The notes beneath the pieces are model-generated. The model worked only from the letters and a program-made list of their open reading frames with translations, searched no databases and was not told where the DNA came from. Shown here one piece after another: positions 14,866 to 30,671 of a DNA stretch of 64,000 nt. The position numbers and the translations under genes are program-made. Every line of letters starts with the position of its first letter. The first letter of the stretch is position 1. Location: positions 1,703,501-1,767,500 of the forward strand of contig NC_013939.1 of assembly GCF_000010985.1 (NCBI RefSeq), given 5' to 3'. Source of the stretch: Deferribacter desulfuricans SSM1 (GTDB taxonomy: Bacteria; Chrysiogenota; Deferribacteres; Deferribacterales; Deferribacteraceae).

Positions 14866-14877
14866 AACCGCCTCCTT

Positions 14878-15240
14878 TTATCCCATATGTGGACTAGATG
14901 GTCCATGGATCTCTTCCAAGCTATTTTTTAAAAATGCGTCTAAATTCTCTTTAATAGTTAAATCTGCATAACCTTTATACATTTTTATACAACTATTTTT
15001 CAAAACTTCATAGGCTTTTGGCCCAACACTCCCAGTTATTAAAACATTTACTCCTAAATTAATGATATCTGAAGCTGCCTGTACGCCAGCACCATGAGCC
15101 AATGTGGCATTTTTATCGTTATTCACAAACTCACCTTTTTCTTCGTCAGTATTATAAATATACCACCAATTCCCACGACCAAATCTTGTGTCCAACTTAC
15201 TATTTAAATCATCATTTAAAGCTGTTATTAATATTTTCAT
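14878..15240 (-). CDS. NifX-like protein 2 (Fe-Mo cofactor fold)
   Basis: This 120-residue member of the same family begins KILITALNDDLNSKLDTRFGRG and has VNVLITGSVGPKAYEVLK in the middle. It differs strongly from its neighbour, so the pair is not a recent duplication. The C-terminus ends HGPSSPHMG. It is probably a paired carrier or scaffold with the downstream NifX-like protein. Confidence 0.75.
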   Translation of the reverse strand: MKILITALNDDLNSKLDTRFGRGNWWYIYNTDEEKGEFVNNDKNATLAHGAGVQAASDIINLGVNVLITGSVGPKAYEVLKNSCIKMYKGYADLTIKENLDAFLKNSLEEIHGPSSPHMG

Positions 15241-15249
15241 TTCACCCTC

Positions 15250-16116
15250 CTACATTGCCATAATCTTATCAAAAAATTCACCAAAAACTTTTACGTAATA
15301 ATGATCATATTCTGGCAATACTTTTTTACTTTTTAAAGCTTCTACAACAACTTTTGAATAATCTATTTTGCCTATATACTCCACATTTTTATCACTAAAA
15401 TAGTCTATAATTTTACAATCTATTTCAGGATTTAAACCAAATTTATTTATAATCAATCCCACCTTACATTTAAAATATGAAACAAGCTCCCAACACCTTT
15501 TTATGTCGTGAAAACCCGACTCAGTAGACTCAGCAACTAAAATGGCAGTATTTGTATTTGTTAATGAAGAAATGGCATTGCACCCTATACCAGGAGGTCC
15601 ATCCACTAATATGATTTCACTACCCTCTTTTTCTGCAATCTTTTTAGCTTCAGCTTTAATCTCCGCAATTAATTTACCGCTATTTTCTTCACCAACAAAA
15701 AGCCTTGCATGAACCATTTTGTTTCCAAATCTTGTAATTGAAATATACTTTTCACCTGTTAACTTTTCATAACTGTTGATTGCTTCTGCTTTACACTCAT
15801 AACTACAAAAGCCGCAACCTTCACAAGATAATTTATCGATTAAATAAGTATCACCATCAAAATTAACTGCATCAAACTCACAAACTTCATAACATCTATT
15901 ACATTTTACACATCTCTCTTGATTTATTTCAAATCTCAAACCAGAATAAAATTTATCCTTCTTTAAAATTTTAGGTTCTAAAAGTATATGCATATCAGCT
16001 GCGTCAACATCTGCATCTACTACAATATCCTTCTGAGATAAAAAATAAGCCAGTCCTGCGGTTATTGTAGATTTGCCTGCTCCACCTTTTCCGCTAATAA
16101 CAACAATCTCTTTCAC
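15250..16116 (-). CDS. MinD/Mrp-like P-loop ATPase with two 4Fe-4S ferredoxin motifs (1)
   Basis: A 288-residue protein with deviant Walker A GKGGAGKST at the N-terminus. A ferredoxin insert around residues 63-100 has CVKCNRCYEVC and CEGCGFCSYEC, and a later Walker B-type region reads ILVDGPPGIGC. The family resembles Mrp/NBP35 cluster carriers but has bound ferredoxin domains. I start at GTG 16116 (MKEIVVISGKGG) because GAGG sits just upstream; the frame extends four codons to a TTG inside the preceding gene. Its start overlaps or abuts the upstream paralogue's stop, implying coupled translation. Confidence 0.8.
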   Translation of the reverse strand: MKEIVVISGKGGAGKSTITAGLAYFLSQKDIVVDADVDAADMHILLEPKILKKDKFYSGLRFEINQERCVKCNRCYEVCEFDAVNFDGDTYLIDKLSCEGCGFCSYECKAEAINSYEKLTGEKYISITRFGNKMVHARLFVGEENSGKLIAEIKAEAKKIAEKEGSEIILVDGPPGIGCNAISSLTNTNTAILVAESTESGFHDIKRCWELVSYFKCKVGLIINKFGLNPEIDCKIIDYFSDKNVEYIGKIDYSKVVVEALKSKKVLPEYDHYYVKVFGEFFDKIMAM

Positions 16117-16124
16117 TTCATACC

Positions 16125-16958
16125 TCAATTTGAAATATATTTTAAAGTACCTTCTAAATTCCCTTTTATAATTTTAAGGATGGAACTACCTTTAGAATAT
16201 TCAATCGCTACATCTTTACTAAAAGGTATTTTTGCAATTACCTCTACCCCTTTCTCATATGCAAACTCTTCAATCTCCTTACCATCGATATATTTATTAA
16301 TCACTAAATAATATGATTTATCAAGCTCAGCCATTAAATCATGTATCAACTTATAATCATTAAATCCAAAAGGTGTATCCTCCACAACAACAACTATTTT
16401 ATCACAATTATCAACGGTTTCTATAACTGGGCAAGATGTACCAGGAGGCGCATCCATAATAACAAAATCGAAATCTTTTTCGAGTTTATTGATTTTTTTA
16501 TTTACCTGCTTAATCAATGCTGTTGTTAATACCTCACCAATATTTAATCTCCCCTCAATAAAATAAAAATTATCTTTTTTTACTTCTCCAATCTTTCCAA
16601 TTTCTCTCTTATCCTCTTTAATAGCTCCAAATCTACAAACATATCCACAAGCTTTACAACCATGGCACAACTCAGGAAAAAGCATCCAAAAATCTTTTGC
16701 TACAGCAAGTGCCTTAAATAAACACTTTTCTGAACACTCTCTGCAATATGTACAGTTTTCCTTTATATGACCAGGAACATAAGTGTAAACGGTATCATAA
16801 TTTAAAGTCAGATTATAAAATAGATTGCAATTTGGCTCTTCAACATCCAAATCAGCCAGCAACACTTTAAACCCTTTATTTAATAACAGTTCAGAAAGTG
16901 ATATGGCAAAGGAGGTTTTACCAGCTCCCCCTTTGCCACTAATAACACCAATCTTCAA
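16125..16958 (-). CDS. MinD/Mrp-like P-loop ATPase with two 4Fe-4S ferredoxin motifs (2)
   Basis: A 277-residue paralogue of the next gene. Walker A is GKGGAGKTS, the insert carries CTYCRECSEKC and CHGCKACGYVC (eight cysteines for two clusters), and VIMDAPPGTSCP follows. The two ATPases are always adjacent in this cluster type and probably form a heterodimer that moves an Fe-S or Mo-containing cofactor. The client here could be the Psr-type enzymes or the hydrogenase; this is inference. Confidence 0.8.
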   Translation of the reverse strand: MKIGVISGKGGAGKTSFAISLSELLLNKGFKVLLADLDVEEPNCNLFYNLTLNYDTVYTYVPGHIKENCTYCRECSEKCLFKALAVAKDFWMLFPELCHGCKACGYVCRFGAIKEDKREIGKIGEVKKDNFYFIEGRLNIGEVLTTALIKQVNKKINKLEKDFDFVIMDAPPGTSCPVIETVDNCDKIVVVVEDTPFGFNDYKLIHDLMAELDKSYYLVINKYIDGKEIEEFAYEKGVEVIAKIPFSKDVAIEYSKGSSILKIIKGNLEGTLKYISN

Positions 16959-17212: not shown

Positions 17213-17584
17213 TTACCCTTCTTCTGGTCTACACTTATGTTTACTACCTAAAAAACCAGTCTCTTTTCCACATCTTCTACATCTATGTCTTCTAACAAAC
17301 TCTACACTTCCACCTTCTATAGCTATTTCTTTCCCCTCTATAAACATCTCAGAAACTTTCCTTCTAGCCTTTTCAACCAATCTAGAAAAGGTTGGTCTCG
17401 ATATCCCCATCAGCTCAGCAGCCTCTTCATGATCTAATCCTTCATAATCTGCAAGCCTTATCGCTTCCAATTCATCGAGTGTTAATCCAATTTTTTCTAA
17501 CTCCGTACTTGGTACACCTTTCGGTTTAAATTCATAGTAAATAGGTTTAAAAGCAACCATTCTTGTTTTACTTGGTCTTGCCAT
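17213..17584 (-). CDS. UPF0251 (DUF134) DNA-binding regulator 1
   Basis: This 123-residue protein has the UPF0251 N-terminus MARPSKTRMVAFKPIYYEFKP-like and a sigma70-region-4-like helix-turn-helix (LTLDELEAIRLADYEGL, then EAAELMGISRPTFSRLVEKAR). A C-terminal zinc ribbon holds CRRCGKETGF and a final Cys-Arg. It heads the NifX/Mrp operon and lies between it and the first psr-type operon. ATG 17584 is preferred to the GTG one codon upstream. A CATATG palindrome 29 bases upstream may serve autoregulation. Confidence 0.8.
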   Translation of the reverse strand: MARPSKTRMVAFKPIYYEFKPKGVPSTELEKIGLTLDELEAIRLADYEGLDHEEAAELMGISRPTFSRLVEKARRKVSEMFIEGKEIAIEGGSVEFVRRHRCRRCGKETGFLGSKHKCRPEEG

Positions 17585-17874
17585 CACTCACCTCACAGAT
17601 TAATATAATAAACATATGTTCAAAATCAATACTTTTTTAAAATAAATCAGATTATTTTTTTACATTATTTCATAATGAAACTCAATAAAAACCTACTATC
17701 TAAATATGCATTAATTTTAAAATCAGATTTTTCATATGATTAATGTTACCAGTGGGATAAATTTAGCGAAGTAATCTGGAATTTGAACATTTACTTCTTT
17801 ATGATATCTTAATTTTACTTAGTAACTGCTCAAAATAATTTTTTACTCAATTTATCCATTATTTTAAAATAAAA
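17585..17874. other. Intergenic region upstream of UPF0251 regulator 1
   Basis: AT-rich. AACATATGTT (17611-17620) is a perfect 10-bp palindrome near the regulator's likely promoter, and a further CATATG lies at 17733-17738. A stretch around 17764-17779 (AGCGAAGTAATCT) faintly resembles the end of the dispersed palindromic repeat. No gene seen. Confidence 0.4.
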
Positions 17875-17900: not shown

Positions 17901-19091
17901 TTAATGATGCTCTGTTTCAAGATTAAGATATTTTTCTGCTGCAAAGTAAAGGAAAAGAAATACACCCCAACCAAGAGCAAATATCATCCATTCACCAGCT
18001 GATGGTGAATAATGTGCCAAACCAGAAATTGTTGTGTGAACTCCAGAACCTTCATAACCAGCTCTCATTGGAGGAAGCTGACCAGCTACAATAAAGTCAA
18101 ATCTTGTAAAGAACAGTCCTATCATATAGATAAATCCAGCAAAACCAAGTGCCTTCATATTTCTTGCCTTTGTAAAAACAATGATAAGAAGAGGCAAAAC
18201 AACAGCCAAACCAACCTCACCAATCCAGAAATTCACACTCAAAGGCCCTTTAAGCATTGCAAGCACAGCTTCGTAAGCACCTTTAGGTTCTGTATAAAGT
18301 GATGACATAATTTTCCAGAAATATAAGAATATCATCAAACCAATACCAAGTCCCATAAGTTTGCCAAGAGCAGTCATTGAATCTTCAAGATCGCTTGGGA
18401 TTCTTCCTTTATAAACTATATTATGAATGAGCATCAACATTGCAGCTCCAGCTGTAATACCAGAAATAACTAAGAAAGTTGAGAAGTAAATCCCATGATA
18501 AAATGGCCTTGCATTCAAACTTCCAAAAACATATCCAAGGTTACTTGTAGCAACAGTACCAACTAAAAGTGCAAAAAACCCTACTACTGCAGAAGCTGAA
18601 TGGCTCACTTTATCTGGATTAAACACCATATATAGCTCAATTGCTAAAATAACAAGCTCGATACTATAAAATACACCCATCCATACAATAGGTGCTCTCA
18701 AGTTTGGAGACAGTATCAGATATATCATAAGTCTGATAGGGTGACCAATCTCCATACCAATTTGAGTAAAACCAGCAAGAAGGATAACAAACGCCATAAC
18801 AACAATTCTTCTGCTCATTTTTGCATACTTTTCATATCCAAAAGCATGGCCAAGACCACCTATAAAAGCAAGTCCTGTTGAGGTAATAACAAAATATGCA
18901 TAGGTTGCTATTAAAAGCCCCCAAGGAACCTCTCTTGTAACACCATAAACAGCTTCATGACCTTTTAACAATACTTGCAAAACAGCTATTCCGCCAATCG
19001 CAAGTAATATCAACCCTAAAATTATAAAAGGGTAAGCTGGTATATCTTTATTCAATGTAAAAAGCGACTTTTTTTCAACATGTGCTGCCAT
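17901..19091 (-). CDS. psrC: NrfD/PsrC-type quinol-oxidising membrane subunit (operon 1)
   Basis: A 396-residue integral membrane protein with about nine to ten helices and the NrfD/PsrC features ATYAYFVITSTGLAFIGGLGH, GHPIRLMIYLILSPN and LNARPFYHGIYF. It anchors the catalytic complex and passes electrons between menaquinol and the Fe-S subunit. It is 396 residues against 395 for its paralogue in operon 2. It follows psrB by nine bases. Substrate class (polysulfide, sulfur, thiosulfate) cannot be decided from this subunit. Confidence 0.85.
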   Translation of the reverse strand: MAAHVEKKSLFTLNKDIPAYPFIILGLILLAIGGIAVLQVLLKGHEAVYGVTREVPWGLLIATYAYFVITSTGLAFIGGLGHAFGYEKYAKMSRRIVVMAFVILLAGFTQIGMEIGHPIRLMIYLILSPNLRAPIVWMGVFYSIELVILAIELYMVFNPDKVSHSASAVVGFFALLVGTVATSNLGYVFGSLNARPFYHGIYFSTFLVISGITAGAAMLMLIHNIVYKGRIPSDLEDSMTALGKLMGLGIGLMIFLYFWKIMSSLYTEPKGAYEAVLAMLKGPLSVNFWIGEVGLAVVLPLLIIVFTKARNMKALGFAGFIYMIGLFFTRFDFIVAGQLPPMRAGYEGSGVHTTISGLAHYSPSAGEWMIFALGWGVFLFLYFAAEKYLNLETEHH

Positions 19092-19100
19092 AATATCCTC

Positions 19101-19655
19101 CTACTTTAAGTAAAATAATCTTGGGCGAGTATTTCTATCTGGTTTAAGCTGATAAAAACCTCTTGAAGCAAGTAGCTTGCTAACTTTACTATTTGGATCG
19201 TTTAGATCGCCAAATACCCTAACTTTTGTTGGACAGGTTTCAACACATGCAGGTTCTCTACCCTCGCCCAATCTGTGATAACACATAGTACACTTCTCAA
19301 CCGCCTTATGATGCTCACTAACAAATCTTGCATCATATGGACAAGCTGTCATACACGCTTTACATAAAATACATTTATCATAATCAACAAGAACAACACC
19401 TTCTTCAGTTTTATAAGTAGCATGTGTTGGGCAAACACTTGCACAAGGTGTATTTTCACAATGTTGACATTGAGAAGGTTGATATTCCTGATGTAAATTT
19501 GGGTACTCACCTTGCAAAGGTAGAGCTGTAACCCAAATTCTATATGTTTCATCCCCTACAGGCACACCGTTTTCAAACTTACAAGCAACGGTGCAGGCCT
19601 TACAGTTTAAACACTTTTTTGTATCTAAAACAATAGCATAACGTTTTTTACTCAT
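19101..19655 (-). CDS. psrB: PsrB-type four-cluster ferredoxin subunit (operon 1)
   Basis: A 184-residue electron-transfer subunit with four 4Fe-4S motifs: CLNCKACTVAC, CQHCENTPCASVCP, CILCKACMTACP and the pair CTMCYHR with CVETCP. This layout is that of PsrB, DmsB and NrfC. It has no signal peptide and would be carried through the Tat system bound to the PsrA-like subunit. It sits between psrA and psrC with 9-11 base gaps. Confidence 0.88.
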   Translation of the reverse strand: MSKKRYAIVLDTKKCLNCKACTVACKFENGVPVGDETYRIWVTALPLQGEYPNLHQEYQPSQCQHCENTPCASVCPTHATYKTEEGVVLVDYDKCILCKACMTACPYDARFVSEHHKAVEKCTMCYHRLGEGREPACVETCPTKVRVFGDLNDPNSKVSKLLASRGFYQLKPDRNTRPRLFYLK

Positions 19656-19666
19656 AGCCGCACCCC

Positions 19667-22000
19667 TTATGCTTTCCTGATTTCAACAAAAGTTTCATGC
19701 ATTGCAGCATTACCAGATATTGGCTCAACAGCAGATTTAATAATTGCAGCTTGAGAGCCACCTTTCTTGTAAACAAGGTTTAACCAAGGTGACAACCTTC
19801 CCCAACCATGGATATAGCATACACAATCAGGCCTAATCTTTTCTGTTACATAGGCTTTAACCTTCTGCTCTCCAACTTCACTTTTTACTATGACATAATC
19901 ACCATTAGTAATTCCTAACTTTTTAGCCTCTCTAGTGTTTATCCAGAGCATATTCTCTTTCATAATTTCCCATAAATATGGGATATTTTGTGTACTACTG
20001 TGGGTATGGAAACCGTGTCTTCCCAATATAAATCTATACTTACCTTCCTCTACTTTTGGCCTTCTATAAACTGGTAATGGATCAAGCCCTTTTGCTTCAT
20101 ATTTAAGGTTGTAAAGCTCTATCTTTCCAGAACGTGTTTTAAATCTAAAACCAGGTTTTCTCGTTTTACCATATTGTGGTTTATCTGATAAATAAAAAAC
20201 CCCTTCTTTAGTCAATTTTTCAAAAGCACCAGGAAATCTTGATACTTGATGTTTTAAAAACTCTTCAGTTGATTTATGGAAAATATCTTCAACAACTGTC
20301 TCTTTGAATTCTTCAACTTCATCAGGATCTGCATCATCCCATAGCTCTTTAATCTTTAACATTTCATCAATGATACCAGCAGCAATATCATGCATTGATT
20401 TTGTATCAAATAGAGGTTTTATAACAGGCTGTCTAAATGCTACTACAGGCCAGATACCTGATTCTCCATGGCCAGGATCCCATCTTTCAAGATATGTTGA
20501 TTCTGGTAATACTATATCAGCATACCATGCTGTATCAGACATTTGTGTATCAATAACACAGATAAACTCCATCTGCTCCATCATTTTCAATGTTTTTGGA
20601 CGCTCAGGAACAGACTCAACAGGATTTTGTTTATAAACCATCATCCCTTTAATTGGATATGGTTTCCCTCGAAGTGCAGCCTCTCTCAAAACTAACCAGC
20701 TTCCATCTTTTTCACTTAAAAATGAAACTTTATCTTTGGGTAAACCTTCCTCTCTATCATCTTTAACTATTAAATCAGGCAAAACATCTGCAGCTGCTTC
20801 AGAATCAGCTCTATCTTCAGCCATATCAAAAATAGGAAAAGTAATATCATCATGTTTTACTAACTTAATTTTTGATTTTGGAACAACCCCTCCTGGAGTA
20901 TCCCAACAACCACAAATAGCAGTCAATATCGCACAAGCTCTTCTAAAATATGTATCATTAATATACCAGGAGCTTCTTCTACCAGGATATACAACACTTC
21001 TTGGTGCATATTTTGCAAACTCTCTAGCCATCCATCTAATATCTGCGGCAGGTACTTCACACTCTTTTTCAGCCCATTCTGGAGTGTACTGTTTTACATG
21101 CTCAGCAAGTTTATCAAAACCGTAAGTATATTTCTCTACAAAATCTTTATCATAGAGATTTTCTTCAATAATAACATTTATTAAAGATAAAACTAAAGCT
21201 AAGTCAGTACCAGGTTTAATTGGGTACCATTTATCAGCTTTTGCTGCTGTATTTGTAAATCTTGGATCAAAATAGATTAATTGCTGACCTTTTGGCTTAA
21301 ATCTCTGGAAATCTACAGAATCTGGAGTAACAAGACCTTCAGCTCTGTTTGCTCCAAACATCAAAACAAACTCTGCATTCCTCATATCAGCATCAGGATA
21401 TGTACCATAAACAGACATCCATCCTTGAATTGTAGAAGCAAGACAGAGAGTAGGGTGTCTAACAGTATTTAAAGAACCATAAGATTGAGCAAGAAAATAG
21501 AAAAACTCTTCCTGAAAACCTTCTGTGGAAGCGAAAAGCACAGTTGATCTATTTTCATACTTTACTTTCAACTCAGCAAGTTTTTTAGCAACATATTTGA
21601 AAGCTTCATCCCAGCTAATCTCTTTCCACTTACCTTCACCCCTTTTACCAACTCTAAGAAGAGGTTTCTTCAATCTGTGAGGATCATAAGGAATAGCTGC
21701 TCCTGAATTACCTCTTGCACATAACATACCTCTACTTTTTAAGTACTTAGGGTTTGGATTAAGTTTTTTGATTCTTCCGTTTACAACCTCAGCTATCAAA
21801 CCACACTTATTAACACAGATTGCACAAGTAGATGGGATAAATTTTCTACCTCTTTCACCACTGCTTGGCTTTTCTGCTTCATGTTCAGATGCCACTGCTT
21901 TTAAGCTGGACAAACCTCCAGCAATAGTTAATGCTGCTGCAGTAGTACCTGAAGCTGCTAAAAATTTTCTTCTGCTTAATTTTACATCTGACAGCTTCAT
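19667..22000 (-). CDS. psrA: PsrA/PhsA-type molybdopterin oxidoreductase catalytic subunit (operon 1)
   Basis: This 777-residue enzyme has a Tat signal (SRRKFLAAS at about 9-17) and the 4Fe-4S motif C59-x2-C62-x3-C66, with C94. The Mo-ligand position reads HPTLCLAS, with Cys186 where Psr/Phs enzymes also have Cys. Later molybdopterin-binding regions (FGANRAEG, YPGRRSSW, NPVESVP, GNAAMHETF) are present. It should reduce a sulfur compound in the periplasm; polysulfide or thiosulfate is likelier than arsenate, but this is inference. The promoter region contains GCATATGC. Confidence 0.85.
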   Translation of the reverse strand: MKLSDVKLSRRKFLAASGTTAAALTIAGGLSSLKAVASEHEAEKPSSGERGRKFIPSTCAICVNKCGLIAEVVNGRIKKLNPNPKYLKSRGMLCARGNSGAAIPYDPHRLKKPLLRVGKRGEGKWKEISWDEAFKYVAKKLAELKVKYENRSTVLFASTEGFQEEFFYFLAQSYGSLNTVRHPTLCLASTIQGWMSVYGTYPDADMRNAEFVLMFGANRAEGLVTPDSVDFQRFKPKGQQLIYFDPRFTNTAAKADKWYPIKPGTDLALVLSLINVIIEENLYDKDFVEKYTYGFDKLAEHVKQYTPEWAEKECEVPAADIRWMAREFAKYAPRSVVYPGRRSSWYINDTYFRRACAILTAICGCWDTPGGVVPKSKIKLVKHDDITFPIFDMAEDRADSEAAADVLPDLIVKDDREEGLPKDKVSFLSEKDGSWLVLREAALRGKPYPIKGMMVYKQNPVESVPERPKTLKMMEQMEFICVIDTQMSDTAWYADIVLPESTYLERWDPGHGESGIWPVVAFRQPVIKPLFDTKSMHDIAAGIIDEMLKIKELWDDADPDEVEEFKETVVEDIFHKSTEEFLKHQVSRFPGAFEKLTKEGVFYLSDKPQYGKTRKPGFRFKTRSGKIELYNLKYEAKGLDPLPVYRRPKVEEGKYRFILGRHGFHTHSSTQNIPYLWEIMKENMLWINTREAKKLGITNGDYVIVKSEVGEQKVKAYVTEKIRPDCVCYIHGWGRLSPWLNLVYKKGGSQAAIIKSAVEPISGNAAMHETFVEIRKA

Positions 22001-22041: not shown

Positions 22042-22053
22042 ATTGTATACAAT
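22042..22053. promoter_or_regulatory. Perfect 12-bp palindrome at the psrA1 -10 region
   Basis: ATTGTATACAAT overlaps the predicted -10 of the psrA1 promoter. It is not repeated in front of operon 2, so it may bind a different regulator. Confidence 0.3.
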
Positions 22054-22078
22054 ATACATAAATTATTAGCATATGCAA
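22051..22078 (-). promoter_or_regulatory. Predicted promoter of psr-type operon 1
   Basis: On the minus strand TTGCAT (22078-22073) and TATATT (22056-22051) are 16 bases apart. The -35 lies inside the GCATATGC palindrome. Confidence 0.4.
22069..22076. promoter_or_regulatory. GCATATGC palindrome, candidate UPF0251 operator (operon 1)
   Basis: This perfect 8-bp palindrome lies 69 bases upstream of psrA1 and overlaps its predicted -35. The same 8-mer occurs three times upstream of the paralogous psrA2. Assignment to the UPF0251 regulators is inference from proximity. Confidence 0.5.
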
Positions 22079-22291
22079 GTAAAATTTTTGTCTTTTGACA
22101 AAGATTTGCAAAATATCGCCAAATTTTTCAAACAAAATTTTATTTTATATAACAACCACTTAAATTCGGATAATTATTGTATAATTTATATATTCAAAAC
22201 ATTTAATATTAACCTTTAAACTTTTTTATTGAATTTAGAACATATGATTATAACTTAAAACTATATCAAATCTTTCGTCAAGGAGGAGTAA

Positions 22292-24193
22292 ATGATTTAT
22301 AAAGAACCAATAACCATCAAAAACCTCACATTTAAAAACAGATTCATAATGGCGCCCGTCAAAACTGCTTATGGAACCCCTAATGGAGACGTTACAGAAA
22401 GACATCTTGTGTATTATAATAATATTTCAAAGAATGATGTAGCAATGATAATTTTGGAGCCTGTTTCTGTATCACAAAGTGGCAAAGAGCATCCAAAGCA
22501 GCTAACAATTCATCAAGAAAACAGCGTAGAAAATCTGAGAAAAATTGTTGAGGTACTACATAAAAACAACACATTGGCATGTATAAGTTTAAATCATGCA
22601 GGGCGGGCTGCTAACCCCAAAGCCACAGGTATGCCACCAAAAGCCCCATCAGCCATCACATGCCCATCAACTGGACAGACCCCTGATGAATTAACAGTTG
22701 AAGAGATTGAAGGGATATTAAAAGATTATGAAAAAGCTGTGAAAAATGCAGTAGAAGCAGGTTTTAATGCAATAGAGATACAGTGCGGACATGGTTATTT
22801 AATCCATCAGTTTTTATCTGATAGACTAAACAAAAGAGATGACGAATATGGAAAAGACAAAACTCTATTCTTAAAAAGAGTTTTAGAAATCGTTTCACAA
22901 ACTGCACCTGAAATTGTTAAATTTGTTAGAATTTCTGCAAATGAATTTGTAGAAAACGGATTAGAACCTGAAGATAACAAGATAATTTTAGATTTAGCAA
23001 AAGAATACGGTTTTGATGCAGTACACTGTGGCTTGGGTAATGCTTGTGACTCTCCACCTTGGTATTATAGCCACATGGCTTTACCAGAAGATAAACAGAT
23101 TGATTCTTTAAAAAAGATTAGAAAAATTACTGACTTACCAATTATAGCCGCAGGGAGAATGGCCGATATAGATAAAATAAAACTCTTTGAAAAAGAAAAT
23201 ATTGCTGATTTTATTGCTTTTGGCAGACCTCTAGTAGCTGACCATGAATTAGTAAGAAAAATAGTAAATGATAACTTAGACGATATCGTTTATTGTGGAT
23301 ACTGTTTACAGGGTTGTTTATTTAATGTAAAAAATGGTAAAGGTCTAGGATGTATTGTAAATCCAGAAATAGACAGGCCAAAATTAATAAAAACTGATAA
23401 TCCAAAAAAAGTTGCCGTTATAGGTGGTGGTCCTGCTGGGATGTCAGCTGCAATAACACTCAGCAGAATGGGGCACAATGTAACATTATTTGAAAAAGAA
23501 AATGAACTCGGTGGGCAATTTAGACTTGCACCATTAGCTCCTCATAAAGAATCAATGACAAGGCCTTTAAAAGGCTTAATTAACAAAACCCTTAAATATG
23601 TTAAAGATATTAAACTAAATTATACTTTCACTGAAAAAGATATAGACAGTTTTGAATATTATATTGTTGCAACTGGTTCAAGACAAAATATCCCAGAAAT
23701 CGAAAATCTTGATTCTCAATATTGGATAACCAGCTTGGAATTCTTTGAAAAAACAAAAGAAGTTAAAGGGAAAAGAGTTTTAATTATTGGTGCAGGGATG
23801 GTTGGTATGGAAGCTGCTGAATATTTAGTAGATAAAGGGTATGAAGTAGTCATTACCAAACGAACTGATACAATTGCAAATGATATGGAACCTATCACAA
23901 AAAATCTGATGCTTAAAAGATTAGCTAACAAAGATAATATAAAAATTATGCCAAATACTCGTGTTATAGCTTTTGAAAAAGATAAAGTTATTTATGAAAC
24001 AAACGGTGAAAAAGGTGAATGGGAATCTTTTGACACTGTAATTGTGGCATCAGGTATGCTTCCAAACCACGAGTTACATACATTGCTTGTTAAAAAGAGA
24101 AAAAATGTTTTGGTTGTTGGTGATGCAAATTGTCCAGAGGATATCTTTGCCGCTACACAACAAGGCTATAAAGCAGCAATATCCATAGTATAA
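22292..24193 (+). CDS. Old-Yellow-Enzyme/2,4-dienoyl-CoA reductase-type flavoprotein
   Basis: A 633-residue protein. An FMN TIM barrel (1-330) carries RFIMAPVKTAYG, NHAGRAANP and QFLSDRLNKRDDEYG. The 4Fe-4S site CGYCLQGC with a fourth Cys in LGCIVNP lies at about 335-355. An FAD/NAD(P) module (about 365-633) begins VAVIGGGPAGMSAA and ends with VVGDANCPEDIFAA. The architecture is that of FadH/trimethylamine-dehydrogenase-like ene-reductases. The substrate is unknown. It is divergent from psrA1 with strong AAGGAGGAG ribosome site. Confidence 0.85.
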   Translation: MIYKEPITIKNLTFKNRFIMAPVKTAYGTPNGDVTERHLVYYNNISKNDVAMIILEPVSVSQSGKEHPKQLTIHQENSVENLRKIVEVLHKNNTLACISLNHAGRAANPKATGMPPKAPSAITCPSTGQTPDELTVEEIEGILKDYEKAVKNAVEAGFNAIEIQCGHGYLIHQFLSDRLNKRDDEYGKDKTLFLKRVLEIVSQTAPEIVKFVRISANEFVENGLEPEDNKIILDLAKEYGFDAVHCGLGNACDSPPWYYSHMALPEDKQIDSLKKIRKITDLPIIAAGRMADIDKIKLFEKENIADFIAFGRPLVADHELVRKIVNDNLDDIVYCGYCLQGCLFNVKNGKGLGCIVNPEIDRPKLIKTDNPKKVAVIGGGPAGMSAAITLSRMGHNVTLFEKENELGGQFRLAPLAPHKESMTRPLKGLINKTLKYVKDIKLNYTFTEKDIDSFEYYIVATGSRQNIPEIENLDSQYWITSLEFFEKTKEVKGKRVLIIGAGMVGMEAAEYLVDKGYEVVITKRTDTIANDMEPITKNLMLKRLANKDNIKIMPNTRVIAFEKDKVIYETNGEKGEWESFDTVIVASGMLPNHELHTLLVKKRKNVLVVGDANCPEDIFAATQQGYKAAISIV

Positions 24194-24235
24194 AATATTT
24201 AGAGATTACTCCCCAAAAACGGAGTTTTTGAAATT

Positions 24236-24259
24236 AAAGAGAGGCTTAAGCCTCTCTTT
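24236..24259. terminator. Bidirectional terminator
   Basis: The perfect palindrome AAAGAGAGGCTT/AAGCCTCTCTTT is flanked by A/T runs on both sides. It serves the flavoprotein gene and the convergent psr-type operon 2. Confidence 0.85.
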
Positions 24260-24616
24260 TTATTTAACAAAGTTTTCAGTTGTCTCACAACTTTCTGGTT
24301 GATCACTATCATAAGCATGTTGTATTACAAATAACTTTATCATATTCCAATCTTTTTCACTCAAATGGCTAAAATCTACACCTTTATGCATTTCATAAAT
24401 ATATTTTCTATTTTGTGCAAACACATTTTCCCATTGCTGTTGAGTTTTAGAATTTGGTGCCAACTTTGGTACTCCTGTCTTACTCCCATCATGGCAAGCT
24501 AATCTACAGTTTTTCTTCCAGGTATTTCTACCGTAATCAGCAGGATACTTTTTGCTATATGATACAGCTGAAAATATCATTATTAATAGGGCTACCAACA
24601 AATATATCTTTTTCAT
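24260..24616 (-). CDS. Small periplasmic c-type cytochrome with unusual CX3CH haem motif
   Basis: A 118-residue protein with a signal peptide (residues 1-20). It has one candidate haem attachment motif, NCRLACHDGS, with three residues between the cysteines where the norm is two. A downstream Met or His (YEMHKG) could be the sixth ligand, and EKDWNMIKLFVIQHAY resembles the C-terminal helix of class I cytochromes. It is the last gene of psr-type operon 2, so it may exchange electrons with that system. Whether haem is attached needs proof. Confidence 0.65.
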   Translation of the reverse strand: MKKIYLLVALLIMIFSAVSYSKKYPADYGRNTWKKNCRLACHDGSKTGVPKLAPNSKTQQQWENVFAQNRKYIYEMHKGVDFSHLSEKDWNMIKLFVIQHAYDSDQPESCETTENFVK

Positions 24617-24628
24617 AAAAACCCCCTT

Positions 24629-25570
24629 CTAAAATTTTATACAGTATTTAACATCTGATTTTAAAACCTTATCAAGTTTATCCACATTTCCAGTAACTTC
24701 AGGCTCACACAAAACAAAGAATCCATGTTTTTCAAGGATAGAAGCAACTTCGTTAGAGAGTAAGAAATGCACAAATTTAACGGCTAATTCCCTCTTTTGA
24801 GTTGTATGAGGAATAGTAACACTATAAAAAATACAATTTGCAGGAATTGATTTTAGCCCTAATCCATAAAAATCTTCAACTTTGACCTGCTTATAATAAT
24901 CTCCATATCTTGCAGAAAAAAGATTTATCTCCTTAGGTAACTCGAGATATTTAAAACCATACTCATTAGCATATGTTTTATAAGCGATAATATAATCCAC
25001 TTTTTTACTTAAAAGATCTTTAACAATATCTAAATCACTCTTTCTTTCAAATAATGCTTTATCAACAATCTGTTTTGTAAAACCATTTAGACCATAGAAT
25101 AACTCAGCAAGCTTTAAAACCATCAAACTACGATAACCGCATGGCTCATTTGTTGCAGCAGAGAGTCCAACATTTACATCAGGTTTCAATAGAATTTTAT
25201 ACCAATTAGCTTTATCAATATTTTTAGCATATTTACTATCACTTCTAAATCCAAGAACCATCTCATTCTTTGCAAATTTGATATTCCAGTCAGCAAAACC
25301 TTTGGCAACTAAAACGTTATCAATGACTGAATAATCAGCGCTAACTACAACATCAATAATTTTCCCATAGTCATGTATCAGTTTTGCAGCCTTTCCACTA
25401 CAATTGCTTTCATATTTAATTTTAATATTATGCTTATTATAAAATGCTTCTGAAATCTCCGAAAACGATTTTTCAAGGCTTTTTGGGATCAAAACCTTGA
25501 TATACTGCTGAGCATATGCCGATAACGAAAATAGGTAAAAAAAAGCCAACAATATTACAAATCTTTTCAT
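24629..25570 (-). CDS. Periplasmic tungstate/molybdate-binding-type protein (WtpA/ModA-like)
   Basis: A 313-residue protein with a cleavable signal (ending SLSAYAQQ). It has the solute-binding fold of WtpA/ModA: VLIPKSLEKSF, SNCSGKAAKLI, VVSADYSVIDN and TNEPCGYRSL, the last near the oxyanion site. No ModB/ModC-type permease or ATPase is adjacent, so it must work with components elsewhere or have a sensing role. Its place between psrC2 and the small cytochrome links it to molybdoenzyme function. Confidence 0.75.
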   Translation of the reverse strand: MKRFVILLAFFYLFSLSAYAQQYIKVLIPKSLEKSFSEISEAFYNKHNIKIKYESNCSGKAAKLIHDYGKIIDVVVSADYSVIDNVLVAKGFADWNIKFAKNEMVLGFRSDSKYAKNIDKANWYKILLKPDVNVGLSAATNEPCGYRSLMVLKLAELFYGLNGFTKQIVDKALFERKSDLDIVKDLLSKKVDYIIAYKTYANEYGFKYLELPKEINLFSARYGDYYKQVKVEDFYGLGLKSIPANCIFYSVTIPHTTQKRELAVKFVHFLLSNEVASILEKHGFFVLCEPEVTGNVDKLDKVLKSDVKYCIKF

Positions 25571-25593
25571 AACTCACCCCTTATAGTTTTATT

Positions 25594-25614
25594 GGGGCGG
25601 CTATATGCCACCCC
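25594..25614. other. Intra-operon hairpin between psrC2 and the Mo/W-binding gene
   Basis: The arms GGGGCGGC (25594-25601) and GCCACCCC (25607-25614) pair with one mismatch (G-U in the minus-strand RNA) around a 5-nt loop. No T tract follows on the minus strand, so partial attenuation or mRNA stabilisation is likelier than full termination. Confidence 0.4.
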
Positions 25615-25623
25615 TTTAACTAA

Positions 25624-26811
25624 CTACTCTTCACTTAAGTTGAGAACTTTTTCAGCTAATAGATATAAGAAAATACAGAAAGATATTGCACCAATCACAA
25701 TAGAAATTTCTGCAAAGGAAGGAGAATAATGCACCAAACCATCCAATCCAGCACCTTGAACTCTTGCACCAGGGACAGGTTCTCTCATAGGAACCATCTG
25801 GCCTGCAATCACAAGATCATATCTCATAAAGAAAATACCTATTACTGCAGAAATAGCAGCTACAAGAGCAGCTTTAACACTATTGCCCTTTGTAAAAATA
25901 ATTATCAAAAACGGAATAACCATTCCAAGCATTACTTCAAAAATCCAGAAGTTAATTGCTAAATCACCTGACAATAATACTTTTACAGTTTCATATTTTT
26001 CAGGTGGCATTCCATAAACGGATGTTAAGATCTTCCAAATATCAAAAAAGATTATTATACCTAATAACAATCCAAATATTTTAGAAAGCCCTTTTAAAGC
26101 TTCTTTTGCCTTTTCTGGAAGTTTTGATGGGCCACCATAAGCTACATTCATAATGATTAAAATTAATGCTGTACCAGATATAAGTGCTGATAAAATGAAG
26201 TAAATTGGTAAATATGGGCCATGCCAGAATGGTCTTGCTTCAAGAAATCCAAAAACAGCACCCAAATTTGAGTGAGCTGAAATACCAGCAAGAAACCCAG
26301 CTAAACCGGCAATTTGAGCACCCGTATGATTATGAGTCATCAAGAAATAAAACTCAATAGCAATACACACAAGATAAACACCATACAATGTTCCCATCCA
26401 CCAAATTGCAGAATGAAGATTTGGCGAAATTATATTATAAATCATCATTCTAAAAGGGTGACCAAGCTCTAAACCTATAACACCAAATCCACATAACAAT
26501 GTAAATATCGCTAAAATAATTGCTCTTTTACCGATAACTTCATACTTCTCTATGCCAAAAACATGCCCCATAGATGAAATCAAACATAAACCTGTACTGG
26601 AAACAACAAAAAACACATAAGTTGATATCAAAATTCCCCAAGGAACTGTTTTGGTTACACCATAAGCTGCATCACCTATTGTAAGCTTTTTAAAAACTCC
26701 ATATAACCCAATTAGAGATATCAATAAAAATATCCCAAGCCAAACATTTGAAATTCTTTTATTACCATTAAAAATATCGCTTTTATTTAATGTAGTCGCA
26801 TGAGCACTCAT
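25624..26811 (-). CDS. psrC: NrfD/PsrC-type quinol-oxidising membrane subunit (operon 2)
   Basis: A 395-residue paralogue of the operon 1 subunit with the same landmarks: STYVFFVVSSTGLCLISSMGH, GHPFRMMIYNIISPN and LEARPFWHGPYLP. It ends LAEKVLNLSEE, like its partner's LAAEKYLNLE. About nine membrane helices. It is placed nine bases after psrB2 with a separate ribosome site, and is followed by a hairpin and the Mo/W-binding gene. Confidence 0.85.
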   Translation of the reverse strand: MSAHATTLNKSDIFNGNKRISNVWLGIFLLISLIGLYGVFKKLTIGDAAYGVTKTVPWGILISTYVFFVVSSTGLCLISSMGHVFGIEKYEVIGKRAIILAIFTLLCGFGVIGLELGHPFRMMIYNIISPNLHSAIWWMGTLYGVYLVCIAIEFYFLMTHNHTGAQIAGLAGFLAGISAHSNLGAVFGFLEARPFWHGPYLPIYFILSALISGTALILIIMNVAYGGPSKLPEKAKEALKGLSKIFGLLLGIIIFFDIWKILTSVYGMPPEKYETVKVLLSGDLAINFWIFEVMLGMVIPFLIIIFTKGNSVKAALVAAISAVIGIFFMRYDLVIAGQMVPMREPVPGARVQGAGLDGLVHYSPSFAEISIVIGAISFCIFLYLLAEKVLNLSEE

Positions 26812-26820
26812 AATTACCCC

Positions 26821-27378
26821 CTATCTTTTGATATAAATAAGTTTTGGATGCGTACCTTTTTCAGGTTTTAAAACTTCGGTATCATGCATTTTTACCAGCT
26901 TAGAAACTTCACTTTCAGGATCATTCAAGTCGCCAAAAACCCTAACCTTTGGAGGGCATGTCTCAACACAAGCTGGCTCTCTCCCCTCAGGCAATCTATG
27001 ATAACAGAAGGTACATTTATCAACAGCCTCAATCTCTTCATTTACATATCTTGCATCATATGGACATGCAGTCATACAATATTTACACAAAATACACTTA
27101 TTGTGATCAACCAATACAACACCATCTTCTGTCTGGTATGAAGCCTGTGTAGGGCAAACATGCACGCAAGGAGGGTTTTCACATTGCTGACATTGTGAAG
27201 GCCTAAACATCCTTTTTATCATTGGAAATTCTGATTCTTTAGTTCTTTCAGCAACCCAGTTCCTGTAAAAATACATACCCAAAGGAACATGATTTTCCAT
27301 TTTACATGCAACAGTACAAGCCTTACAATCTATACATTTGCTATCATCAAAAACTATAGCCCACTTTTTCTTACTCAT
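26821..27378 (-). CDS. psrB: PsrB-type four-cluster ferredoxin subunit (operon 2)
   Basis: A 185-residue protein with four 4Fe-4S motifs (CIDCKACTVAC, CQQCENPPCVHVCP, CILCKYCMTACP, and CTFCYHR with CVETCPP). Very similar to the operon 1 protein through the central region and divergent in the C-terminal 20 residues. It wires the catalytic subunit to the membrane subunit. Confidence 0.88.
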   Translation of the reverse strand: MSKKKWAIVFDDSKCIDCKACTVACKMENHVPLGMYFYRNWVAERTKESEFPMIKRMFRPSQCQQCENPPCVHVCPTQASYQTEDGVVLVDHNKCILCKYCMTACPYDARYVNEEIEAVDKCTFCYHRLPEGREPACVETCPPKVRVFGDLNDPESEVSKLVKMHDTEVLKPEKGTHPKLIYIKR

Positions 27379-27392
27379 TTCACACCTCTAAA

Positions 27393-29726
27393 TTAAATTT
27401 TCTCTATTGTTACAAAAGTTTCATGCATTGCTGCATTCCCTGAAATTGGATCTACATAATCTTTTATAATTTCAGCATCTGAAGCGCCTACACGATAAAT
27501 ATGGGACAACCCTTTTGAAAGTCTACCAAAACCGTGTACATAGAATACAACATCAGGTCTTATATACTCGGTTGGTAAAGCTTTAACGATTTGCTCACCT
27601 ACAGGGCTTTTTACTTTTACTTTATCGCCAGCTTTAATACCCATTCTTGCAGCAACCTTAGAGTTTATCCAAACAGCATTCTCCTTGTCACCATATGCTT
27701 CAAGCAACCAAGGGTTGTTTTGAGTTGAAGCGTGAGTAAACTGACCATGTCTACCTACAACAAATCTAAATTGACCAGGTTTTGGATCCTCGTGTCTTGA
27801 ATATACTGGTAAAGGATATAATCCTTTCTCTTCGTATTTTACGTTGTAAATCTCTATCTTACCTGTTCTTGTTTTAAACCTAAAACCATCCTTTAATGTT
27901 TTTCCATATTTTGGTTTATCAGATAGATAAAAAACACCATCTTTTAATAATTTTTCAAAAGCACCTGGATACTGAGATACTTGATACTTAGCAAAATCTT
28001 TTACTGGATTTTTTGTCAGTCTTTTTAAACATGTTTCCTTGAACATCTCTAAATCTTCTTCTGAGGTATCTTCCCAAAAATCTTCTCTTTCCATGAATCT
28101 GTGAGCTAAATTACACATAATTTCAAACATAGGCTTTGTATCAAATAAAGGCTCTATAACTGGCTGTCTCATAACGGCAATAGGAACAATACCATTCAAT
28201 GAATGTACAGGGTCCCATCTTTCAAGATAAGTGGATTCTGGTAACACAACATCTGAGTACCAAGCAGTATCACTCATTGCCACATCGATTGTACAAATAA
28301 ACTCCATCTGCTCCAACATCTGCAATGTCTTTTTACGATTTGGTACTGATTCAACAGGATTTTGTTTATAAACAAACAACCCTTTTACAGGATAAGGAAC
28401 CCCTTTTAAGATTGCTTCTCTAAAAATAATCCAGCTACCATCTTTTTCTGATAAGTATTGACAAGAGTCTGTTGGTAATCCAGCATCTGTTTTATCATGC
28501 TCTGGTAAAACATCCCCTAAAAATGGTACTTTCCCAGCATCAATCCTTTCTCTAGTCCAATCAAATATTGGAAATTCAATTTCATATTTCCTCAATGGAA
28601 TCTTGGATTTTGGAACCAAACCACCAGGTTTATCCCAAGCTCCACATATCGCGTTTAAAATAGCACACGCTCTCCTATAATAAACATCATTGGTATAAAA
28701 AGAGCTTCTTCTACCTGGATACCATACAGATTTTGGCGCATGTTTAGCAAACTCTCTTGCTAACCAATAAATCTCTTTTGCAGAAATTTCTGTTTCTTTT
28801 TCTGCCCATTCAGGTGTATACTGATTTTTGTTCACATGCTCTACAAGCTTATCAAAACCGTAAGTGTACTTTTCTACAAATTCTTTATCATATAGATTTT
28901 CATTAATTATTACATAAATCACAGCCAAAACTAAAGCCAAGTCTGTACCAGGTTTTATTGGATACCATTTATCAGCTAACGCTGTAGTTTTTGTAGCTCT
29001 TGGGTCTATATACACTAATGTTTGATCTCTATGTTTTTTAGCCATATCAATTGTATCAGGAGTAACAATAGCTTCAGCCCTGTTTGAACCTGATATAACA
29101 ACAAACTCAGCATTTAAAATATCAGCATCTGGAAATGTCCCAAAAACTGAAGAATATCCTTGAATATTGGAAGCTAAACACAAAGTTGGATGTCTTACAG
29201 TGTTTGCTGTACCAATAATATTAGCTAAATCAATAAAATACTCTTCTTGGAAACCTTCTGTTGATGCAAAAGCGATAGTTGATCTGTTTTGATATTTTTT
29301 AACAAGTTTTACAACATTATCCACAATATAATCATAAGCCTCTTCCCAGCTCACTTCTTTCCATTTACCTTCGCCCCTTTTACCAACCCTAATTAATGGT
29401 TTTTTTAATCTGTCTGGGTCATAAGGTGCTTTTGCGCCTGCATTACCTCTTGCACAAATCATTGATCTTGACTTAAAATATCTTGGATTTGGGTTAATCT
29501 TCCTTATTACTCCATTATTAACCTCTGCAATAAAACCACACTTATTCACACATATTGCGCAGGTAGATGGAACAAACTTTCTACCTTTAGAAGATTTAGA
29601 TTTCTCTTCAGAAGCTGATACAGACTTTAAAACTCCAAAATTTGATGCAACCAAGGTAGCAGCTACAGCACCGCTCGTTGCTCCAAGGAATTTTCTCCTT
29701 GTTACCTTTGTTTTTAATAAAGACAT
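27393..29726 (-). CDS. psrA: PsrA/PhsA-type molybdopterin oxidoreductase catalytic subunit (operon 2)
   Basis: This 777-residue enzyme is the same length as its paralogue. Tat signal TRRKFLGAT; 4Fe-4S ligands C56, C59, C63 and C91; the Mo-ligand position HPTLCLAS puts Cys at 183. The start is ATG 29726 because AGGAGG lies eight bases upstream; the frame continues 21 codons further without a ribosome site and would bury the Tat motif. The close but clearly diverged pair suggests two related substrates or conditions. Three GCATATGC palindromes lie upstream. Confidence 0.85.
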   Translation of the reverse strand: MSLLKTKVTRRKFLGATSGAVAATLVASNFGVLKSVSASEEKSKSSKGRKFVPSTCAICVNKCGFIAEVNNGVIRKINPNPRYFKSRSMICARGNAGAKAPYDPDRLKKPLIRVGKRGEGKWKEVSWEEAYDYIVDNVVKLVKKYQNRSTIAFASTEGFQEEYFIDLANIIGTANTVRHPTLCLASNIQGYSSVFGTFPDADILNAEFVVISGSNRAEAIVTPDTIDMAKKHRDQTLVYIDPRATKTTALADKWYPIKPGTDLALVLAVIYVIINENLYDKEFVEKYTYGFDKLVEHVNKNQYTPEWAEKETEISAKEIYWLAREFAKHAPKSVWYPGRRSSFYTNDVYYRRACAILNAICGAWDKPGGLVPKSKIPLRKYEIEFPIFDWTRERIDAGKVPFLGDVLPEHDKTDAGLPTDSCQYLSEKDGSWIIFREAILKGVPYPVKGLFVYKQNPVESVPNRKKTLQMLEQMEFICTIDVAMSDTAWYSDVVLPESTYLERWDPVHSLNGIVPIAVMRQPVIEPLFDTKPMFEIMCNLAHRFMEREDFWEDTSEEDLEMFKETCLKRLTKNPVKDFAKYQVSQYPGAFEKLLKDGVFYLSDKPKYGKTLKDGFRFKTRTGKIEIYNVKYEEKGLYPLPVYSRHEDPKPGQFRFVVGRHGQFTHASTQNNPWLLEAYGDKENAVWINSKVAARMGIKAGDKVKVKSPVGEQIVKALPTEYIRPDVVFYVHGFGRLSKGLSHIYRVGASDAEIIKDYVDPISGNAAMHETFVTIEKI

Positions 29727-29762
29727 TTTACAGACCTCCTCTAATGGATTTTCATGTTTTCG

Positions 29763-29789
29763 AATATAACTATATTTGGATAATGTCAA
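29763..29789 (-). promoter_or_regulatory. Predicted promoter of psr-type operon 2
   Basis: On the minus strand a perfect TTGACA (29789-29784) is followed after 15 bases by TATATT (29768-29763). The three GCATATGC sites all lie upstream, about 70, 92 and 129 bases before the inferred start, an arrangement more typical of activation. Confidence 0.4.
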
Positions 29790-29822
29790 TAAAAATTTAT
29801 TTTTATTATCAAGTAGTTACAA

Positions 29823-29830
29823 GCATATGC
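29823..29830. promoter_or_regulatory. GCATATGC palindrome, operon 2, site 1
   Basis: This is the nearest of three identical 8-bp palindromes to the psrA2 promoter. Centre-to-centre distance to site 2 is 22 bases, about two DNA turns. Confidence 0.5.
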
Positions 29831-29844
29831 TTTATTTCTATGTA

Positions 29845-29852
29845 GCATATGC
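29845..29852. promoter_or_regulatory. GCATATGC palindrome, operon 2, site 2
   Basis: Middle site, flanked as TAGCATATGCTA, a perfect 12-bp palindrome. Confidence 0.5.
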
Positions 29853-29881
29853 TAATATTACATAATAGTGTTATATTTTTA

Positions 29882-29889
29882 GCATATGC
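29882..29889. promoter_or_regulatory. GCATATGC palindrome, operon 2, site 3
   Basis: Farthest site, 37 bases centre-to-centre from site 2 and 31 bases past the end of the UPF0251 regulator 2 gene. Confidence 0.45.
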
Positions 29890-29919
29890 CTATTTTTATG
29901 ATGATTTGCTAATAAAATT

Positions 29920-30378
29920 TTAGATTTTAGAATTAATACGAAGAGGGCATTGACAATATTTGCCACATCTCTGTCTTTTAATTACCTCTGACTTGTTACA
30001 TTTTGGACAGACGACATCTTTTTCTTCTATCCCATCAGCCAACACCCATTCATGCCCACACTCTATACATTTTACTTCTCTTGGAACAAACTCAATATGC
30101 TCATCATACGAAAGTATCAACCTTTTTCCATTTACTAAAGCGTCAGTAACTATTCTTCTGGCTTGTTCAACTATTCTACCAAATGTCTGTCTAGAAACAT
30201 GCATTTTATCAGCTGCTTCTTCCTGTGATAAACCTTCAAGATCTGCTAATCTCATCGCCTCCAATTGATCAATAGATAATTCTGCAACAGGGATGTGCTC
30301 ACAAAAATTACAATAAGGTCCAAACTCACTAAATCTTGGCCTATGTTTTACTTTTCTTTTCTTTGGTGGTCTCGCCAT
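29920..30378 (-). CDS. UPF0251 (DUF134) DNA-binding regulator 2 with extended zinc ribbon
   Basis: A 152-residue relative of the regulator at 17213. It starts MARPPKKRKVKHRPRFSEFG and has the helix-turn-helix EAADKMHVSRQTFGRIVEQAR. The C-terminal zinc ribbon is longer, with CIECGHEW, CPKCNKSE and a final cluster CGKYCQCP. ATG 30378 is used, with GAGGTT upstream; the frame extends ten codons more without a start signal. It lies directly upstream of psr-type operon 2 and in the same direction, hence a likely local regulator. Confidence 0.8.
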   Translation of the reverse strand: MARPPKKRKVKHRPRFSEFGPYCNFCEHIPVAELSIDQLEAMRLADLEGLSQEEAADKMHVSRQTFGRIVEQARRIVTDALVNGKRLILSYDEHIEFVPREVKCIECGHEWVLADGIEEKDVVCPKCNKSEVIKRQRCGKYCQCPLRINSKI

Positions 30379-30393
30379 AATAACCTCAACAAT

Positions 30394-30422
30394 TTTATAA
30401 TACAACATTGCGAAAAAGTCAA
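30394..30422 (-). promoter_or_regulatory. Sigma70-type promoter of UPF0251 regulator 2
   Basis: On the minus strand TTGACT (30422-30417) and TATAAA (30399-30394) are separated by 17 bases. A CATATGC sequence (30450-30456) lies just upstream. Confidence 0.55.
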
Positions 30423-30671
30423 ATTTTTATAACATAGTTTTATTGTTGTCATATGCCCAATATATTCTACCAAACTGATAGCTTTTAAAAACAATAAGTT
30501 TTTGTCAGTTTTATAGGCATAAGCGCATTTTAACTTTATTTATATTTTTTGTTTTTCTTAAAAAATAAGGGGTGAAACATAGATAAACTGAATAATGTTT
30601 AAAGCATTTTCCAATAACAATAAACCATATCAAAAAATAAAAAAAATCAACAATAATGGCATATACTCATT
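30423..30671. other. Intergenic region with a bulged hairpin
   Basis: AT-rich. AAACTGA (30472-30478) with AAAAAC (30487-30492) can pair with GTTTTT (30498-30503) and TCAGTTT (30505-30511), giving a hairpin with an internal bulge. No T tract follows on either side. No gene seen. Confidence 0.35.

Follow-up and report, generated by a model that had tools for sequence, protein, structure and literature searches.

Regulators of the UPF0251/DUF134 family are predicted to bind palindromes with a CATATG core. In the 64-kb stretch of the Deferribacter desulfuricans SSM1 genome analysed here (the window), one such regulator, REG2, would read GCATATGC at the promoters of two psr operons and of its own gene, and a second one, REG1, would read AACATATGTT; from the sequence comparisons described below, we give this reading a probability of roughly 0.8. 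The window holds two PhsA/PsrA-like molybdoenzyme operons on the minus strand, psrABC1 (17901-22000) and psrABC2 (25624-29726), and each of them adjoins, as the initial annotation had stated, a UPF0251/DUF134 helix-turn-helix (HTH) gene. REG1 (17213-17584, minus strand, with an SRPTFSR recognition helix) follows psrC1, and REG2 (29920-30375, minus strand, 151 amino acids from the ATG at 30375, with an SRQTFGR recognition helix and a Cys-rich, zinc-ribbon-like C-terminal part) precedes psrA2. Both neighbours match PF02001 above its gathering score of 27 bits, with 95.7 bits and E 2.6e-27 for the open reading frame (ORF) 17213-17587 of REG1, and 66.8 bits and E 2.6e-18 for the ORF 29920-30408 of REG2. 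The true starts are likely 30375 for REG2 and 29726 for psrA2, instead of the first start codons of the mechanically called ORFs; the TTG at 29789, at the mechanical ORF start of psrA2, is part of a -35 box. The proposed targets psrA1 (19667-22000) and psrA2 (27393-29726), both molybdopterin oxidoreductases on the minus strand, have PhsA as best NCBIfam model and stay below its equivalog cut-off (551 and 519 versus 694 bits), hence are PhsA/PsrA-like only.

The octamer GCATATGC occurs five times in the window, at 22069-22076, 25512-25519, 29823-29830, 29845-29852 and 29882-29889, four copies being intergenic in the psr/REG2 regions and one coding. The initial annotation had placed one copy upstream of psrA1 and three upstream of psrA2, all of which were found, and had expected about one in the window by base composition; in 100 shuffled windows the mean was 0.68 and the count never reached five. 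Genome-wide (2.54 Mb) the octamer occurs 29 times; the 24 copies beyond the window, all examined, comprise 23 inside mechanically called ORFs and one intergenic copy between convergent genes. Equal abundance of the 8-mer in random intergenic regions, which had been named as grounds for dropping the idea, is thus not what the genome presents. The psr/REG2 loci (about 700 nucleotides, nt) hold four of its five intergenic copies (Poisson about 2e-10 for 29 random sites), so that among intergenic sites the palindrome is near-exclusive to these promoters. That the clustering reflects chance or the composition of an AT-rich palindrome can practically be dismissed, the genome being AT-rich and nearly all copies outside the window lying in coding sequence, but no shuffle reaching the observed count and the octamer being conserved across families and phyla. 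The fifth copy in the window, beyond the four noted initially, lies inside the WtpA/ModA-like ORF 24629-25570, where it encodes signal-peptide residues and recurs at the same place in a congener (G010; L036, 11735); it was set aside as a site and is probably a coding coincidence. This ORF, directly after psrC2, encodes a periplasmic solute-binding protein closest to the tungstate-binding WtpA, below the NCBIfam cut-off, and its position suggests a Mo/W link of the psrABC2 operon.

Within the phylum, represented by 50 genomes, REG2 orthologs stand beside psrA in 14 genomes belonging to four families (f1, f3, f4 and f5). A motif search of relatives, near molybdoenzyme operons beside UPF0251 genes, had been proposed at the outset, and it found GCATATGC before psrA and/or REG2 in 11 of these 14. 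When palindromes were ranked in the 14 loci, with 35 intergenic regions next to REG2 or in front of psrA as targets and 79 further ones for comparison, GCATATGC came first among all 256 8-mer palindromes, with occurrences in 11 loci, 21 matches in the targets and none in the other intergenic regions. Homologs of psrA are present in 23 of the 50 genomes, 14 with REG2 and nine without it (G003, G006, G008, G017 and G020-G024), and the octamer lies within 400 nt of psrA in 11 of the former versus none of the latter (Fisher 3e-4, a value that ignores shared ancestry). A psr-borne motif independent of REG2 was rejected on this absence in nine of nine genomes. A looser pattern, WRGCATATGCYW, was not discriminating, matching in 43 of the 50 genomes with the control often equally high.

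Beyond the phylum, 84,980 species genomes were scanned with a 24-sequence alignment and the best 80 of 547 DUF134 loci were kept, of which three from the phylum of the window were set aside and one had too little upstream DNA, leaving 76. Within 150 nt upstream of the DUF134 start, CATATG was found in 55 of these 76 loci, which span more than 20 phyla, versus 8 of 510 equally long control windows, and GCATATGC in 37 versus none of the 510 control windows of the same loci. In the ranking of 8-mer palindromes GCATATGC leads with its 37 loci, the next being ACATATGT with 8, followed by one with 4. A second, less selected set comprised 38 DUF134 loci obtained with the Pfam model: 148 genomes of another phylum contributed 30 of them, and the rest were six second copies and two viral contigs. 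Flank predictions for this set were fixed before the loci were inspected. The predicted flanks were seen as ATGAACATATGTTCAT in two PTFSR loci (L234, L244), as ATTGGCATATGCTAAT in four QTFGN loci with near-identical proteins (L240, L242, L246, L252) and as ATGRGCATATGCYYAT in four QTFGR loci (L219, L224, L228, L233). Among the 148 genomes, 15 contain the 14-mer TKRGCATATGCYMA, at 18 places in total, and at eight of these it stands directly before a DUF134 gene; it is present in 11 of 48 genomes with DUF134 versus 4 of 100 without (Fisher 8e-4). In the genome of L131, a MinD/Mrp-like ATPase is preceded at 133 nt by a further copy (L259). Some loci that lack CATATG have a changed palindrome centre, e.g. 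TGAGCAAATGCTCA (L249, L251), HTFGR/HTYGR loci may use TGCTCAWWTGAGCA, seen in two of four, and for PTVTR-type regulators no operator variant was found in five loci. Many DUF134 genes carry a conserved palindrome in their own promoter, as an autoregulator would, and the palindrome is predicted to be a family-wide autoregulatory operator of UPF0251/DUF134.

Concerning the bases flanking the core, these covary with the recognition helix. With the helix written as SR-X1-T-X2-X3-X4 and the half-site as p1-p5 before CATATG, clustering at 65% identity yielded 51 clusters, 38 of them with a site. By mutual information (permutation with 2000 shuffles), the strongest link is that between X4 and p3 (0.74 versus a null of 0.06, p 0.0005), and X1 as well as X3 are linked to both p4 and p5 (p 0.0005). 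A T at p3 in both halves is found in 12 of 12 clusters with X4=N and in none of 25 with X4=R (Fisher 5e-10), SRQTFGN going with TTRGCATATGCYAA and TG.. flanks predominating among the other helices. On a tree of 69 proteins computed with the helix left out, X4 changes five times, p3 six times and the combined label six times, hence the rule is not one ancestral accident; one X4=N protein on the tree (L153) is without the T. Paralogs of a single genome carry ATTAGCATATGCCAAT for QTFGN (L123) versus ATGGGCATATGCTCAT for QTFGR (L219) in G054, and ATTGGCATATGCCAAT for QTFGN versus ATGCGCATATGCGCAT for RTLER in G058. If the helix code is true, the binding choice between ATTGGCATATGCCAAT and ATGGGCATATGCCCAT would track N or R in QTFGN and QTFGR proteins.

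DUF134 loci were also seen in other settings. By tblastn, 183 plasmid records match REG2; enterobacterial plasmids carry a DUF134-NifX-PaaI thioesterase-Dps arrangement (L255:1414-3180), and in the one plasmid opened (L255) the DUF134 gene is preceded by two GCATATGC copies, at 23 and 52 nt. Two viral contigs (L253 and L254, near 3001) encode a 242-amino-acid DUF134 protein whose gene is preceded at 23 and 64 nt by TTGACATATG-type sites. In L086, L087 and L088, a divergent DUF134 group with a VARTTVQ/VARTTIQ helix, TTTGGCATATGACAAA and similar sites lie 69-139 nt upstream.

It is improbable that GCATATGC is instead read by an unrelated regulator with its gene elsewhere, one governing anaerobic or sulfur respiration and controlling both psr operons and REG2. 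Other regulators do seem active at psrA1, since its promoters bear a second conserved palindrome, GTATATTGTATAC, in genomes with and without REG2; but such a regulator would leave unexplained why the same palindrome precedes DUF134 genes of many phyla, where NifX/ParA-type proteins are the commonest downstream families, why its flanks follow the DUF134 recognition helix, and why psrA lacks it in the nine psrA genomes without REG2. The second palindrome (22045-22057 on the minus strand) overlaps the candidate -10 of psrA1 and resembles a binding site for a different regulator, perhaps of the GntR type.

The initial annotation had proposed GCATATGC as the operator of the UPF0251 regulators, and phylogenetic footprinting, the occurrence of the same palindromes in many phyla and the flank-helix covariation, all at the level of sequence, support it. 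The octamer fits REG2; what did not stand is one operator for both regulators, as AACATATGTT before REG1 fits the helix class of REG1. Half-matching sites had likewise been reported before both genes, and correspond to a predicted operator of the REG2 promoter at 30449-30456 (TCATATGC on the plus and GCATATGA on the minus strand, about 25 nt upstream of TTGACT), at whose equivalent place G010 has an exact GCATATGC, and to a candidate REG1 operator, AACATATGTT at 17611-17620 within TTGAACATATGTTTAT. The AACATATGTT class occurs with SRPTFSR-type helices, to which REG1 belongs; G010 has ATGAACATATGTTTAT before REG1, and the ATGAACATATGTTCAT of L234 and L244 stands before PTFSR-type regulators. 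As judged from these sites, REG1 and REG2 probably do not share an operator, and a shared operator as main model was rejected on the AACATATGTT class of REG1 and the sites of PTFSR loci. It is unlikely that both proteins bind GCATATGC/CATATG sites redundantly, with REG1 acting on psrA1. Such redundancy would suit the adjacency of REG1 to psrABC1, the core common to both site types, the PFGR and AFGR helices found with both GCATATGC and ACATATGT flanks and the mixed half-sites of PTFSR loci, but the REG1 promoter carries AACATATGTT, the class of the PTFSR regulators, in both G000 and G010, and psrA is without GCATATGC in genomes that have a REG1-type gene and no REG2 (G017, G020-G024).

Returning to REG2 as the reader of GCATATGC, the positions of its predicted operators differ between the two psr promoters. 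The proposed psrA2 promoter (29761-29789, minus strand) consists of TTGACA (29789-29784), a 17-nt spacer and TATTCG (29766-29761), its TTGAC being conserved in 11 genomes, and the operators end 92 nt (29882-29889, the most distal), 55 nt (29845-29852) and 33 nt (29823-29830) upstream of TTGAC. Wherever REG2 and psrA2 occur together, in 11 genomes, the conserved TTGAC is preceded at 32-33 nt by an operator-like octamer (six exact copies of GCATATGC, four with one mismatch and one, in G010, with two), and in 8 of the 11 a second one lies 87-92 nt upstream. G010 has three degenerate sites at the same distances as the exact ones of the window, among them GCAAATGC at the distal and GCATATCC at the middle position. 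Given the 17-nt spacer, the nearest operator would be centred near -72 from a start placed by sequence. A centre near -72 is a position of class I activators, as known for CRP-type proteins, which are of a different family from REG2, and in the 11 promoters the site keeps its distance from the -35, on the upstream side. This geometry suggests activation of psrA2. At psrA1, the predicted operator (22069-22076) overlaps the candidate -35 of a promoter proposed from sequence only (22051-22078, minus strand; TTGCAT at 22078-22073, 16 nt, TATATT at 22056-22051), and TTGCATATGCT is found before psrA1 in G000, G010, G011, G012 and G013; this overlap suggests repression. The overlap at psrA1 and the more upstream sites at psrA2 had both been described initially, and since both positions are conserved in relatives, different modes at the two promoters are plausible, with the sign of regulation deduced from position. 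The predicted operator of REG2 itself likewise lies upstream of TTGAC, by about 25 nt in the window.

In other phyla the placement differs: many QTFGR-type loci have the palindrome inside the TTGACA-TATAAT spacer and many QTFGN-type loci just after the -10 (both seen by eye, uncounted), and operators covering the core promoter suggest autorepression there. These repressor positions, together with the placing of the transcription starts in the window from sequence, favour REG2 as a pure repressor everywhere, acting on psrA2 by looping or at an unrecognised promoter nearer the sites. We regard this as a less likely though serious alternative, since all 11 psrA2 promoters combine a weak -10 with a conserved TTGAC at a fixed 32-33 nt from the predicted operator, an arrangement typical of a class I activator.

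Several observations weigh against the assignment of CATATG-core palindromes to the family, of GCATATGC to REG2 and of AACATATGTT to REG1. The 80 best of 547 loci were found with helix-containing peptide patterns, which favours REG2-like helices; in the less selected second set CATATG is upstream in 16 of 38 loci, a lower share, and of 115 DUF134 loci from other phyla 33 have no operator of any form tested. The REG2 clade breaks the p3 rule, since it has X4=R and its half-sites nonetheless have T (18), A (9) or G (5) at p3. Inside the phylum, GCATATGC was not found at the REG2 locus of G025, G026 and G028, which have the psrA1-type operon only and no psrA2, and the psrA2 sites of the congener G010 are only degenerate. 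No AACATATGTT is found near the REG1-type genes in families f3, f4 and f5; since those of f3 and f4 follow psrC1 directly, they may have no promoter of their own. Finally, AACATATGTT is not rare in the host genome, with nine copies versus seven for the reversed control, a count set aside as uninformative evidence: five of the nine places were examined and two are intergenic, one of them before REG1.

The AlphaFold2 model of REG2 (predicted local distance difference test score 84) has helices at 35-46, 51-58 and 62-82; these form a three-helix HTH in which SRQTF marks the beginning of the last helix, and in this SRxTF recognition helix S61, R62, T64 and F65 are invariant in 24 aligned sequences. 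A PDB sequence search at E 0.1 or better recognised no solved DUF134 structure. REG1 and REG2 match above cut-off a family (PF02001, COG1342) described as of unknown function, and the literature searched gave no UPF0251 operator, mode or target; most subscription journals and the regulon databases lie outside it, so an earlier description is possible. The HTH of REG2 matches Sigma70_r4_2 and locally resembles sigma-70 region 4 (SigR 5fgm, SigC 2o8x, SigE 2h27) over about 42-49 residues at a root-mean-square deviation of 0.6-1.0, the whole-model Foldseek matches being all above E 0.001. As a part of RNA polymerase, sigma region 4 recognises a -35 box that is asymmetric, whereas UPF0251 sites are palindromic, which implies a dimer, and the REG proteins match the region-4-type HTH only, with no region 2 match in Pfam or NCBIfam. 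The best PDB sequence match (E 3e-4) is the DeoR-type deoxyribonucleoside regulator (7bhy/8r7y), which also matches locally in structure and binds an operator; the HTH alone is common to the two, REG2 being without the sugar-binding effector domain. A weak Foldseek match of REG2 to HypA was set aside, as it probably reflects the zinc ribbon. The site reported for Xtr of C. difficile, GCATATGCACCACC, contains GCATATGC (PMC13260099), but Xtr is a 47-kDa XRE protein with a site at -349 and flanks that are not palindromic, non-UPF0251 by size and annotation, and it was therefore set aside as an earlier description of a UPF0251 operator.

In the mechanism that we propose, UPF0251/DUF134 proteins would be dimeric regulators with a sigma-region-4-like HTH, binding a palindrome of about 16 bp with a CATATG core, usually NNKRGCATATGCYMNN, whose outer bases would be set by the recognition helix SR-X1-T-F-X3-X4. 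Most members would sit on their own promoter and repress themselves. REG2 would activate psrABC2 from the three GCATATGC sites upstream of the -35, probably activate its own gene from one site and probably repress psrABC1 through the site overlapping its -35, and REG1 would read the related AACATATGTT before its own gene. The fuller scheme, in which X4 specifies base 3, X1 and X3 specify bases 4-5, and the REG2 branch turned an ancestral autorepressor into a class I activator of psrABC2 and repressor of psrABC1, is more tentative and falls a little short of an even chance. The Cys-rich C-terminal part of REG2 may sense a metal, Fe-S or redox signal, and one linked to Mo/W, Fe-S or redox is plausible. 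Of 79 proteins encoded downstream of DUF134 genes in other phyla, 27 match Nitro_FeMo-Co and 15 ParA/NUBPL (82 were selected and 3 left out), and the same gene set is found near REG1, with NifX-like genes at 14515-15240 and MinD-like genes at 15250-16958. The segment 14515-16958, downstream of REG1, has two of each and resembles an orange-protein cluster.

If this is true, REG2, on a Deferribacterales-type branch, would switch between two respiratory enzymes, psrABC2 being a molybdo- or tungsto-enzyme operon, and UPF0251 would rank among the most widespread of the regulator families still uncharacterised, its helix-to-operator code being readable. The DUF134 family, present in more than 20 bacterial phyla and in archaeal control genomes, would gain a specific, testable operator and proposed targets: itself, NifX/ParA-type Fe-S or Mo-cofactor genes, and psr operons. 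With the residue-to-base predictions supplied here, DUF134 regulons would become computable in any genome, and UPF0251 would offer a small sigma-region-4-like fold for studying how DNA is read by one helix.

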